Assembly: GCA_003601605.1 (NCBI GenBank)
Contig: PIXZ01000004.1
Span: 1-52,002, forward strand
Direction of reading: 5' to 3'
DNA: 52,002 nucleotides
Source: Candidatus Bathyarchaeota archaeon
GTDB lineage: Archaea > Thermoproteota > Bathyarchaeia > Bathyarchaeales > Bathycorpusculaceae
The position numbers and the translations under genes are program-made. Positions within the stretch are counted from its first letter, which is position 1, and every line of letters begins with the position of its first letter. Shown here piece by piece: positions 18,868 to 35,052 of the stretch. The notes beneath the pieces are model-generated. The model was not told where the DNA came from and searched no databases. It was given only the letters and a program-made list of their open reading frames with translations.

Positions 18868-19881
18868 ATGGGAATTTTCATGAAAAATTTTGACCTAGAA
18901 GAAGAAAGAATAAAGAAGGAAATACAGCAACTAAAAGCCAAACGCGTATTAATACAGCTTCCGGAAGGCTTAAAACCAGAAGCACCGCACATAGCCAAGA
19001 CAGTTGAAAAGGCCGGAGCATTACCAATAATTTCTGCAGACCCTTGTTATGGAGCATGCGACCTAGCGGAAGCTGAAGCTGAAAGCCTCAACGCAGATTT
19101 AATTATACATTATGGACATTCAAAACTTTTGAAGTATGAACGAGTTCCAACCATTTATGTGGAAGCGAGGGCAACCTTGAAAATTGACGAAGCTGTTGAA
19201 AAGGCTCTGCCTTTGTTAGAGAAAATGGAAAAGATAGGGTTAGCCACCACAGTTCAGCACGTGCAAACTTTGGATGAAGTTAGAGAAATTCTCACTCGTT
19301 CCGGAAAAACCGTGGTTATAGGTGATGCTGGACGCCTAAACTATCCTGGACAGGTTATTGGATGTGATTTTAGTAACGCTAAATCCATAGCAAAAGATGT
19401 GGAAGCCTTTCTTTTCATCGGCGGCGGACGATTCCACGCATTAGGTGTAGCTCTTTCAACTTCAAAACCAACGGTGGTTGCAGACCCTTACGAAAATAGA
19501 GCTTACATAATTAAAGATGAAATAAAGAAAATTTTGAAACAGCGGTGGGCAAGCATAGAAGAAGCTAAAAAAGCGAAAAAATTTGCGGTTTTAGTCGGAC
19601 TAAAGCCAGGGCAAAAACGTTTTGAAGAAGCATTAAAAATAAAAGAAAAGCTTGAAAAACATGGAAAAACCGCGTTTCTGTTCGCAGTTAAGGAAGTCAC
19701 ACCAGAAGTTTTAATGGAATTCCCTTCAATAGACGCTTATGTAAACACTGCTTGCCCGAGGCTCTCACTGGACGACGTGGCAAGATTTAAGAAGCCAATG
19801 CTAACAATTAACGAAACCTTAGTTGTTGTTAATGAACTTTCCTGGGAAAAATTATGCCAAAAAGGCTGGTTCGAAAACTAG
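18868..19881 (+). CDS. dph2: Diphthamide synthesis enzyme Dph2 (radical 3-amino-3-carboxypropyl transferase)
   Basis: A [4Fe-4S] enzyme that transfers the 3-amino-3-carboxypropyl group of SAM to a histidine of elongation factor 2. 337 residues, the usual archaeal length. Cluster cysteines are C60 (in SADPCYGACD), C166 (GQVIGCDFSN) and C296 (YVNTACPRLS), one per domain, in the three-repeat arrangement of the family. The segment LIQLPEGLKPEA near the N-terminus is also typical. ATG 18868 or ATG 18880 may be used. The 3' end overlaps the methyltransferase gene by 28 bases, so the two are probably cotranscribed. Confidence 0.93.
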   Translation: MGIFMKNFDLEEERIKKEIQQLKAKRVLIQLPEGLKPEAPHIAKTVEKAGALPIISADPCYGACDLAEAEAESLNADLIIHYGHSKLLKYERVPTIYVEARATLKIDEAVEKALPLLEKMEKIGLATTVQHVQTLDEVREILTRSGKTVVIGDAGRLNYPGQVIGCDFSNAKSIAKDVEAFLFIGGGRFHALGVALSTSKPTVVADPYENRAYIIKDEIKKILKQRWASIEEAKKAKKFAVLVGLKPGQKRFEEALKIKEKLEKHGKTAFLFAVKEVTPEVLMEFPSIDAYVNTACPRLSLDDVARFKKPMLTINETLVVVNELSWEKLCQKGWFEN

Positions 19882-20574
19882 ACCTGGAAATGCTGCTTTC
19901 GCAAGTTGAACCTCACCCGTCTCCTAAGCCAAGTCTTGAACAATACACAATTCCGTCAGATGTTGCAGCAACAATTCTTTACGTGGCAGCTTACATGCAT
20001 AACAACATAGTCGGCAAAACAGTTTTGGATTTGGGATGCGGTACCGGAAGACTTGCTTTAGGCGCTGCTTTTCTAGGCGCAAAAGAAGTAGTAGGCGTCG
20101 ATATAGACAAAACAGCGATTAGAACAGCCTTGAAAAACGCTGAAAAGCTGGGACTAAAAGGCAAGGTGCAATGGGTTGTTGCAGATATAAGCGCTGTTCA
20201 CGGGAAATTTGATGTTGTCTTGCAGAATCCGCCTTTTGGGGTGCAAAAACGAGGGGCTGACCGAAAGTTTATCGAAAAAGCTTTAGAAGTTGGCGAAACC
20301 ATTTACTCTCTCCACAAACATCTACTCTCTCCACAAACATCCACGCACAGACAAAAAACTTTTGAAGAAAATTAAAACTGGAAAAAATGAGTTAATTCCC
20401 ATTCTTCCATCTCCCTTTCTAGAAAAATTTATCAAAACGCATGGCGGAAAAGTTATAGCTGTCTATGCTATGGCAATAAAAATTCCACACATGTTCAGTT
20501 TTCATACAAAAAAGAAACACGAGTTTATAGTAGACTTGTACATAATAGAGGGAAGCAAAAAACTTGGTAACTAA
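19854..20574 (+). pseudogene. METTL5-like rRNA adenine methyltransferase, frameshifted by a 19-bp tandem duplication
   Basis: An N6-adenine methyltransferase of the METTL5/archaeal RNA methylase type. The first frame (19854-20375) holds EQYTIPSDVAATILY, the SAM motif TVLDLGCGTGRLALGAAF, VGVDIDKTAI and the catalytic NPPFGVQKRGADRKF. After GETIYSLHKH the frame is lost. The second frame (to 20574) supplies the C-terminal part PRTDKKLLKK to LYIIEGSKK. Removing one copy of the 19-base repeat at 20304-20341 rejoins both into one protein of about 233 residues with the expected family ending. As written the protein is truncated to 173 residues with an out-of-frame tail. Either a recent slippage mutation, strain variation, or an assembly artefact. 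The HicB/DinB-like gene downstream overlaps its end by 11 bases. Confidence 0.85.
20304..20341. repeat. 19-bp perfect tandem duplication inside the METTL5-like gene
   Basis: The unit TACTCTCTCCACAAACATC occurs twice with no spacer. It adds 19 bases, hence a +1 shift, and repeats the coding of YSLHKH in a second frame. The surrounding coding sequence reads through in one frame if one unit is removed, which is direct evidence that the second copy is secondary. Confidence 0.93.
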
Positions 20575-21283
20575 AATTTTCGTTTGTCTCGAGGTAGGTT
20601 CTGAAGGGACTGGAGTTTTTGTTCCAGCCTATCCAGGTTGCTGGGTGTTTGGACGAACTCCGGAAAGAGCGTTATTGAAGGTGAAAGAAGCTATATTTGA
20701 CTGGTTTAGATGGATTGAAAAGCATGGTGAACATGTTTCTAATGAAACAAAAAACTTTGAAGTTGAAGTTGCAGAAATGATGAGAGTCGATTACAACCCA
20801 GTTGAAGCGGGCAAGCCAGAACCCCTTTTTTGGTCTGAAATCGCACCTGTTTCAAGAAAAGACATTACCAGAACAATTCAGCTGTTAGAATATTCTCGAG
20901 AGGATTTACTGAAACTTGTTTCTAATCTGAGCAAAGAATGCCTTGAGTGGTTACCTCCTAACAAACCACGCACAATAAAAAATTGTCTAAAACATATAGC
21001 CTATGTCGAGCCATGGTATATTACACGCCTAAACATCGATTTGCCCAGCAAATACCCACGGAATACATTTAAACTGTTAGATTATACACGCAAACTAATT
21101 GTAAACGTTTTAAAGGATTTTCCTAAAGAAAAAATGCGTGGCGTCTATCAACCTAAAAAAGATCGAAGCCCTGTATGCAATTTATGGACTGCGCGAAAAG
21201 TATTAAGAAGATTGGTTGACCATGAGCGATTACACACGCGATACATTGAAAAAGTGTTACAACTTTACAAAGCCAAAAAATAA
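20564..21283 (+). CDS. HicB-like N-terminus fused to a DinB-like four-helix domain
   Basis: A 239-residue protein in two parts. Residues about 1-60 (FVCLEVGSEGTGVFVPAYPG, then CWVFGRTPERALLKVKEAI) show the HicB/UPF0150 fold seen in type II antitoxins. Residues about 100-235 resemble DinB/DUF664-type four-helix proteins: DITRTIQLLEYSREDLLKLV, an HIAYVEPWYI segment and a final VDHERLHTRYIEKVLQ. The histidines H in KHIAYVE and H in DHERLH could be metal ligands of the DinB type. No partner HicA toxin lies nearby. TTG 20564 overlaps the upstream gene. The role is unknown. Confidence 0.6.
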   Translation: MVTKIFVCLEVGSEGTGVFVPAYPGCWVFGRTPERALLKVKEAIFDWFRWIEKHGEHVSNETKNFEVEVAEMMRVDYNPVEAGKPEPLFWSEIAPVSRKDITRTIQLLEYSREDLLKLVSNLSKECLEWLPPNKPRTIKNCLKHIAYVEPWYITRLNIDLPSKYPRNTFKLLDYTRKLIVNVLKDFPKEKMRGVYQPKKDRSPVCNLWTARKVLRRLVDHERLHTRYIEKVLQLYKAKK

Positions 21284-21348: not shown

Positions 21349-21410
21349 ATGCTTTAACCTTAATGGTAGCCTACAAGCATAGATAATTGTAAGACAGCTT
21401 GGGATTAAAA

Positions 21411-21992
21411 TTGAGTTTGAAATCATACAAAGAGAAAAGCGGTCAGTTCGTGTTGCCTGGTGAACGTTTAGGCGTGATTGAAGAGTTTATTCCGAACAGC
21501 GGAACATACGTTAAAAGCGGCGTAATCTACTCAAAAATTGTGGGTCGTGCCCTACTAGACTTCTTGAATAAGCGAGTCTCTGTTTACCCCCTTGTTCACG
21601 GAGCAAAAATTCCAAGAGTAGGAAGCATAGTTCTTGGGCAAGTCTCAAGCGTTCAAAGCGAAAACGCTGCCGTAAGAATTTTCAAGATAGGTAACAAGCT
21701 GCTTTCAGGGTTCTTCACTGGAATTTTACACATATCAGATGTGCAGCTAAGATACGTAGAATCCATGTATGATGTGTGCAAGCCTGGCGACATTTTAAGG
21801 GCGAAAGTTATTAGCGAAAAAAATCGCACGTACCATTTATCCACAAAAGACAAAAATCTAGGCGTTGTTTACGCCTTCTGTTCGCAGTGTGGATACATGC
21901 TTGCGTCAAAAAAGCAGAACATGTATTGTCCGCGGTGTGGGAAAATTGAAAAACGCAAAATTACAATAGATTACGGAAAAGGAATAGTATGA
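21411..21992 (+). CDS. csl4: Exosome subunit Csl4
   Basis: RNA-binding cap subunit of the archaeal exosome, which recruits DnaG and binds RNA substrates. The N-terminal domain has GQFVLPGERLGVIEEFIPNS. The S1 domain runs from about residue 70 to 140 (GSIVLGQVSSVQSENAAVRI, LHISDVQLRYV, PGDILRAKVISE). The C-terminal zinc ribbon has CSQCGYM and CPRCGK. Length is about 193 residues, typical. The start is uncertain: TTG 21411, preceded by a weak GGGA, or TTG 21399. It is followed 17 bases later by rpoL, an arrangement known from archaea. Confidence 0.93.
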   Translation: MSLKSYKEKSGQFVLPGERLGVIEEFIPNSGTYVKSGVIYSKIVGRALLDFLNKRVSVYPLVHGAKIPRVGSIVLGQVSSVQSENAAVRIFKIGNKLLSGFFTGILHISDVQLRYVESMYDVCKPGDILRAKVISEKNRTYHLSTKDKNLGVVYAFCSQCGYMLASKKQNMYCPRCGKIEKRKITIDYGKGIV

Positions 21993-22008: not shown

Positions 22009-22293
22009 ATGAAAGTTAAAATATTAAAAGAAACAGCTAACGAGCTTAAAATAGAAATCGAAGGCGCTGGACACACTCTTTGTAATTTGTTGCAGAAAAT
22101 ACTCTTAGAAGATGAAAACGTAGATTTAGCTGGCTATGACATACCCCACCCTCTAGCCTCCAACCCAATAGTCTACGTTAGAACAAAAGGAAAAGCAAAA
22201 CCAAAACAAGCTCTGCTTAACGCCTTAAAAAAGGCGAAAGATATAAACAAAGAATTCAGCAAAACATTTGAAAAAGCCCTCAAGAAAATTTAA
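22009..22293 (+). CDS. rpoL: RNA polymerase subunit Rpo11 (RpoL)
   Basis: The alpha-C-like assembly subunit of archaeal RNA polymerase that pairs with Rpo3. 94 residues, with the family core EGAGHTLCNLLQKILLEDEN, AGYDIPHPLASNPIVYVRTK and a C-terminal helix. ATG 22009 follows GAAAGGAGCTG. The 3' end overlaps the convergent RNase III-like gene by 14 bases. Confidence 0.96.
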   Translation: MKVKILKETANELKIEIEGAGHTLCNLLQKILLEDENVDLAGYDIPHPLASNPIVYVRTKGKAKPKQALLNALKKAKDINKEFSKTFEKALKKI

Positions 22294-33340: not shown

Positions 33341-33889
33341 ATGTACAGTGAACTTTATAAAATATGGAAGCAAGAGTTAGAAAGCAAAGAATTGACAAGG
33401 CTTCCCGAGGATTTCTATACAAGAATAGTTGACTATTTCAAAAAACTTAGAGAAGAGCACCGCATGCTTGACAAACGAACGGTTAAGGCATCACTTCTTT
33501 CAAGAGAAATGCATAATGTTAAATTCATGACTTTCAAAATACTTAATGCGCGTTACACAAAATTAATTGCATACACCGTGGAAGGTAAGAAGATCACCAG
33601 CAATTTGTTGACACGAGAGGAAGAAAAATTTTACAAGAATCTCTTTACAATTAACGAATCTTTCTGCAATTTTGTTAATGATGTTCTTCAAGGACACTTG
33701 TCAAGTATTGACCTTAAGCAGAAGCACAGAAGAATTGTTTTGCGTTTTTTTAAACCAGTTCCAGCTATAGTGGGCGCAGATATGAAAACATACGGTCCAT
33801 TCAAAGCTGAGGATGTAGCCTCTGTGCCTGATGATAATGCCAAAATATTGATTAACAGGGATCTCGCTGGAAAGGTTGAAATTAGTTAA
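33341..33889 (+). CDS. gins51: GINS complex subunit Gins51
   Basis: 182 residues, with the helical A domain first (LPEDFYTRIVDYFKKLREEH, LLSREMHNVKFMTFKILNAR) and the small B domain last (RFFKPVPAIVGADMKTYGPF, EDVASVPDDNAKILI), which is the Gins51/Gins15 order. It forms the CMG-like helicase with Gins23, MCM and GAN/Cdc45. ATG 33341 follows GAGGGGAT. The neighbourhood with priS is conserved in TACK archaea, apart from the inserted GT2. The last bases overlap the convergent sortase-like gene by four. Confidence 0.87.
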   Translation: MYSELYKIWKQELESKELTRLPEDFYTRIVDYFKKLREEHRMLDKRTVKASLLSREMHNVKFMTFKILNARYTKLIAYTVEGKKITSNLLTREEEKFYKNLFTINESFCNFVNDVLQGHLSSIDLKQKHRRIVLRFFKPVPAIVGADMKTYGPFKAEDVASVPDDNAKILINRDLAGKVEIS

Positions 33890-34914
33890 TCACGTGTGCT
33901 TTTGTTTCTGATTTTTCTCCAGATAGCTCGAGTTCCAATAATTATTAAAGGATATGCTATAATCCAACTAATTGGAAGTAATGGTCCATAAAAATCATGA
34001 AATCGTTGGAAAGCAATGCTTCCCTCGTTTATCCCAACCATGACGATTAACATTATCCTTATTATGTTGATGAAATAAGTTACCGCGGCACCAAACAGAA
34101 AATAAACTATCTGCTGCTTGCGTGGAATATTGCTATTTCTTAAAAACAACGGAATCGTTAGAGCATATATTAAAAGACTTTCAATGCCGGAGCATGGCCA
34201 ACCAATTAAAAATTCTATGGAGCCCCCTCCAACAGGATCTGCAACTACATAGTCTGGCATTCCATTGGTTGTGCCCAGCCATATCACTTTATATCCTATT
34301 ATTTGGAGAAAATTTGTTGCAAGTAGTGCTGTAATTGGGATAAGAGCTTGAAATGGTGTAAAATTGCCTTCTGGGTATATGTTGTCTATGGTGTATATCA
34401 GTCCAATAGTTCCTAGTAAAATTATAGACATAGACATTTTTGCTATACCACTCACTCCATATGTTATGACGAGTACCAATGCAAAAAGAATTGTCAAAAC
34501 CAAGTATTCCATTGCAAGAGGCATCCAATCGCAGCCTGGTTTTATGCCATAACTGTAGATTAAATCCACAATTCCTCTGTTTAGTCCATAAAAATTTGCC
34601 TTTACTACATACAATGTGGGAAGTATCAATGCTATGATTAAAAGAAATGTTCTTATGGATTTTGTGCTAAGATTTATTACTTCCAGTTCTTCCCAACTTA
34701 ATATAAGCTCTAATGTAAAAATCCATAAAAAGAAAATGTAGAATGTCCTACCCTTCCATAAAACTTCAAAACTGTTTGCATCTGGATCATAGTAATATGG
34801 GTAAGGCGGAAAAGCATCGTATTGATACACGTACAATATCAAAATTGGGGTTATGAAAGAAAGCATTAGCAGCAGTTTTATTATTGAATTTATATTTTTG
34901 TTAGATAACAGCAT
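33886..34914 (-). CDS. Exosortase/archaeosortase family membrane protein
   Basis: About 342 residues with eight or more membrane helices. The family catalytic triad is visible: Cys241 in LIGWPCSGIESLLIY, Arg286 in YFINIIRIMLI and His306 in FQRFHDFYGPLLP. These enzymes cut C-terminal sorting tails (PGF-CTERM type and others) and link surface proteins to lipids. A divergent-length loop near PVGGGSIEF precedes the Cys. I see no obvious sorting-tail substrate in the window; the secreted protein at 51066 is cut before its C-terminus. Start ATG 34914 is preceded by GTGTGTAAATATC, much like the fbp leader. GTG 34929 is less likely. Confidence 0.83.
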   Translation of the reverse strand: MLLSNKNINSIIKLLLMLSFITPILILYVYQYDAFPPYPYYYDPDANSFEVLWKGRTFYIFFLWIFTLELILSWEELEVINLSTKSIRTFLLIIALILPTLYVVKANFYGLNRGIVDLIYSYGIKPGCDWMPLAMEYLVLTILFALVLVITYGVSGIAKMSMSIILLGTIGLIYTIDNIYPEGNFTPFQALIPITALLATNFLQIIGYKVIWLGTTNGMPDYVVADPVGGGSIEFLIGWPCSGIESLLIYALTIPLFLRNSNIPRKQQIVYFLFGAAVTYFINIIRIMLIVMVGINEGSIAFQRFHDFYGPLLPISWIIAYPLIIIGTRAIWRKIRNKSTRD

Positions 34915-35052
34915 GATATTTACACACACTTTGTTCTTTATTCAAACTCCTCTTATGATAATTACTGTTTCTATTATCCATTTCTCACTATATTCCAGCT
35001 GAATATTGGAAAAATATAAGAGTATGTTTGTTTTCTTTATGCAGAGCTGGTC

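Follow-up and report, generated by a model that had tools for sequence, protein, structure and literature searches.

According to one survey, over 90% of the archaea examined have METTL5, a normally conserved rRNA methyltransferase (PMC8481954), and the m6A of 16S rRNA in Haloferax (m6A1432) has been attributed to it (PMC8481954). The enzyme was lost from the Dikarya fungi (PMC8481954). Solved structures are available for human METTL5 (9ohl, 6h2u) and for PH1948 from Pyrococcus (1wy7). In the human protein, C-terminal frameshifts are destabilising (PMC9636144). Two of them, Arg115fs and Lys191fs, are 2-bp deletions that remove C-terminal strands of the fold; the frameshift at residue 191 spares the NPPF motif and lowers protein levels (PMC9636144). 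Tandem duplications, the type of change considered here, are among the spontaneous mutations recorded in Sulfolobus (PMC7785828).

The window, a stretch of 52,002 nucleotides from a Bathyarchaeia archaeon, contains a gene of this family. When a profile of its relatives was compared with solved structures, the best matches were PH1948 (E 1e-42), human METTL5 (4e-39) and Ta1320 (3e-28), with the next family at 3e-9; this agrees with the METTL5-like identity proposed in the earlier note. Pfam assigned the gene to general methyltransferase families only. The likeness to the human, Pyrococcus and Haloferax enzymes extends over most of its length, and the window gene shares with METTL5 enzymes the SAM-binding motif, the NPPF motif (QNPPFG at residues 124-129, kept in relatives, with NPPY in two) and the YSLHK segment. 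However, the window copy differs from the known METTL5 enzymes in being interrupted after residue 156 of 233: the complete C-terminal fold is missing from its frame, and the remainder sits in another one. The same genome encodes Trm112, the predicted partner (PF03966 match on contig C54, E 1.6e-13), as do the METTL5-less genomes that were searched.

At the break, the 19-bp sequence TACTCTCTCCACAAACATC is present twice head to tail on the plus strand, at 20304-20322 and 20323-20341, and the two copies are identical. Tandem Repeats Finder places this pair (20304-20341) as the top-scoring tandem array in the window, and a rough base-composition estimate gives a chance of ~1e-6 for any perfect tandem pair of at least 19 bp in 52 kb. 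The periodicity does not extend exactly past two copies; the only further resemblance is an imperfect CAT match just upstream, and no exact flanking repeat that would aid slippage was found at the site. The two-copy sequence is read as two ORFs in different frames, 19854-20375 (173 aa) and 20290-20574 (94 aa). The first, on the plus strand, begins with the METTL5-like start codon (ATG at 19854, where dph2 has not yet ended) and continues past the DLGCGTG motif for SAM binding and the catalytic QNPPFG motif to YSLHKH, after which come a 17-residue out-of-frame tail and a stop. The 3' part of the gene (20342-20574, plus strand) lies in the other frame, within the ORF open from TTG at 20290, and matches METTL5 profile positions 138-225 with an E value of 9e-33. 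With one 19-bp unit, the frame is whole and encodes a protein of 233 aa that retains the conserved C terminus and can be aligned with relatives over its full length, sharing 74% identity with the nearest and 56-74% with the 12 relatives in alignment A2. The duplication, which costs the frame at residue 156 of 233 and with it the last third of the protein, is the sole lesion seen in the gene. Thus, the earlier note was right that a perfect tandem duplication is present, that dropping one unit restores the gene and that the duplication accounts for the frame loss.

Four neighbouring genes on the plus strand are intact. Upstream, dph2 for diphthamide synthesis (18868-19881; PF01866, E 1e-94) overlaps the METTL5 start; downstream, a gene for a DinB-like/HicB-like protein (20564-21283; PF12867, E 2.6e-8) overlaps the normal METTL5 stop and is followed by the exosome subunit gene csl4 (21399-21992; PF14382 and PF10447) and by rpoL for RNA polymerase subunit L (22009-22293; PF13656, E 4e-23). 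The PEP synthase gene of this neighbourhood is likewise intact.

Among the genomes aligned, the duplication is seen in the window genome alone. All 29 aligned relatives, one of which is cut further downstream by Ns and another of which starts at a contig end, have a single copy at the site, and none is broken there. Candidatus Bathyarchaeota MAGs are the nearest of the named relatives, and a scan of genome contigs turned up nothing closer. As the nearest relatives share ~74% identity in the METTL5 protein, none is close enough to confirm the lesion. At the level of the family, the METTL5 profile matches in 77 of 91 genomes. The gene is in one piece in 75 of these 77 and is split between frames in two, the window genome and G069. 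In G069, the frameshift (L199:1559-2250 on G069:C1, ~69.6-70.3 kb) lies further downstream than the window break and no tandem repeat was noticed at it; from its position and sequence it therefore looks independent of the window lesion. Conservation of the C-terminal part of the window gene is close to that in intact relatives (54% identity to L002 vs 56-68% in comparable pairs, a weak difference), which argues that the break is young. Relaxed selection on the gene, considered on the same comparison, was not evident.

METTL5 is absent from the remaining 14 family members, including every genome of the genera g9 (four) and g28 (three). Three METTL5-less genomes (G105, G008 and G036) are assembled in 4 to 10 contigs and are 96-97% complete. 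In nine genomes (G022, G015, G105, G036, G008, G097, G027, G029 and G003; loci L190-L198), the order PEP synthase, dph2, (dinB-like), csl4, rpoL is kept without METTL5, and in a Dph2+Csl4 tree these nine form one clade with support of 1.00. The window genome falls outside this clade and adjoins G034 and G004, both of which have METTL5. The 16S 3' motif GTCGTAACAAGG is present in eight of the nine METTL5-less genomes, identical to that of METTL5-bearing relatives; it was not found in the ninth, G029, or in the window's own assembly. Judging from these genome comparisons, the gene appears to have been lost altogether in a neighbouring Bathyarchaeia branch. Loss also seems to be tolerated in the family, given its absence from a clade where the operon is otherwise kept and its frameshift in G069. 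This clade resembles the Dikarya in having lost a normally conserved rRNA methyltransferase as a lineage; however, the Dikarya loss is eukaryotic and ancient, whereas the window lesion is recent and lies outside the METTL5-less clade.

We consider that the chances are about even that the METTL5 orthologue of this archaeon was recently inactivated by a single, isolated duplication. On the one hand, this reading is supported by the perfect pair and the accompanying frame loss at a site with one copy in every aligned relative, by the position of the site 20 kb inside the contig in an assembly that is not generally error-ridden, and by the apparent tolerance of METTL5 loss in the family. On the other hand, it is weakened by other frame-breaking perfect duplications in the same assembly, those with units that are not a multiple of three lying near contig ends more often than expected, and by the lack of an exact flanking repeat to aid slippage. 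If the duplication is real, a 19-bp stretch of YSLHKH codons would have been copied once head to tail, presumably by polymerase slippage or by fill-in of a staggered break. The frame shift would end translation at 20375, leaving the NPPF motif in place and eliminating the last third of the methyltransferase. Human Arg115fs and Lys191fs also remove C-terminal strands of this fold, and Lys191fs likewise leaves the NPPF motif, although those lesions are 2-bp deletions and this one is a 19-bp duplication; by analogy, the harm done by losing the frame at residue 156 of 233 should equal or exceed that of the human residue-191 frameshift. The truncated product would most likely be unstable or inactive, in which case the 16S rRNA would be without m6A near the decoding centre. 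Early termination might also reduce translation of the overlapping dinB-like gene.

An assembly artefact is a serious competitor, to which we give somewhat less than an even chance: reads, read mates or contigs overlapping by 19 bp may have been joined uncollapsed, so that the overlap was written twice and the gene is intact in the organism. Tandem duplications were surveyed in ~850 kb of the window genome and 758 kb of controls from seven relatives, both sampled in stretches. Perfect pairs of 14-30 bp numbered 7 in the window genome vs 2 in the similar-sized controls, and nearly all perfect short pairs in this MAG lack extension beyond two copies. Removing one unit lengthens an open frame at five repeats in the window genome, namely those at METTL5 (19 bp), C14:317 (14 bp), C70:540 (14 bp), C25:4038 (11 bp) and C6:5479 (11 bp); the last four thus also break frames, and all of this favours an artefact. 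The contrast with controls is not absolute, as some control repeats (e.g., L140) also lengthen a short ORF when a unit is removed, and the C70 repeat alone is independently supported as a break, by two halves of a Pfam rhomboid domain. Eight pairs have a unit length that is not divisible by three, and four of these fall within 600 bp of a contig end, more than expected (P 0.002 in a post hoc test). This raises the odds of an artefact, and the assembly is scaffolded with N runs. Against this, the METTL5 pair lies well inside the 52-kb contig, 20 kb from either end, with no Ns alongside. Unmerged scaffold overlaps, sought as direct proof of an artefact, were not seen, as the flanks of the 7 N runs have no terminal overlap. 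The window assembly is not generally error-ridden and its conserved genes are mostly intact: tblastn raised frameshift flags at 5 of 377 hit sites vs 10 of 602 in controls, and the other flags in the window genome, when read, looked like neighbouring or overlapping genes. Our literature search turned up no paper describing short tandem duplications as a recognised artefact of MAGs.

Whether it arose by recent mutation or in assembly, the duplication is a single lesion of an ordinary kind, and its main value is that it draws attention to the loss of METTL5 across a clade. Alone it amounts to one broken gene in one draft genome, and it warns that in such genomes gene loss can be mimicked by short perfect duplications. 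The family to which it points has METTL5 missing in one clade and frameshifted in G069 (a candidate, at the level of the assembly), with both the neighbouring genes and the sequence of the 16S target retained; a comparison of close relatives whose ribosomes do and do not carry the mark could reveal the purpose of a conserved modification.

A broader version of the real-lesion reading strikes us as improbable: that the METTL5 lesion and several like it, in the rhomboid gene and elsewhere, are genuinely present in the archaeon as the work of an unusual mutational process, one that generates short tandem duplications where there are no flanking repeats, and that its family has lost METTL5 along with the 16S m6A on more than one occasion. 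Less probable still is the phase-variable switch that the earlier note had listed, in which gain or loss of one 19-bp unit would toggle the gene in the population. A perfect pair could in principle revert by slippage or recombination, and the unit is not a multiple of three; however, there are two copies only, no relative has a repeat at the site, and the gene is in one piece in nearly every family genome that has it, so that the multi-copy tract variable between relatives that one would look for is not seen. It is barely credible that a functional enzyme is still made from the two parts, whether through programmed frameshifting or from two separate polypeptides: the layout is absent from relatives, predicted folding of the region is no stronger than that of shuffled sequence, and a recent break or an artefact would account just as well for the conservation of the downstream part, which is open from its TTG.

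Several further observations concern this genome and its relatives. The rhomboid protease gene split by a perfect 14-bp tandem duplication lies at L174:540-568 (G000:C70), in the same genome as the window. Other perfect short repeats there are at L083:317-344 (G000:C14), L177:4038-4059 (G000:C25), L075:5479-5506 (G000:C6) and L077:18648-18691 (G000:C8); the C14, C25 and C6 repeats each interrupt an ORF, and all but one of the four lie within ~400 bp of a contig end. The DinB-like domain and HicB-like N-terminal part found between METTL5 and csl4 are present in some relatives and absent from others. Elsewhere in the window, the minus strand encodes an exosortase-like membrane protein (33889-34941; PF09721, E 6e-11).
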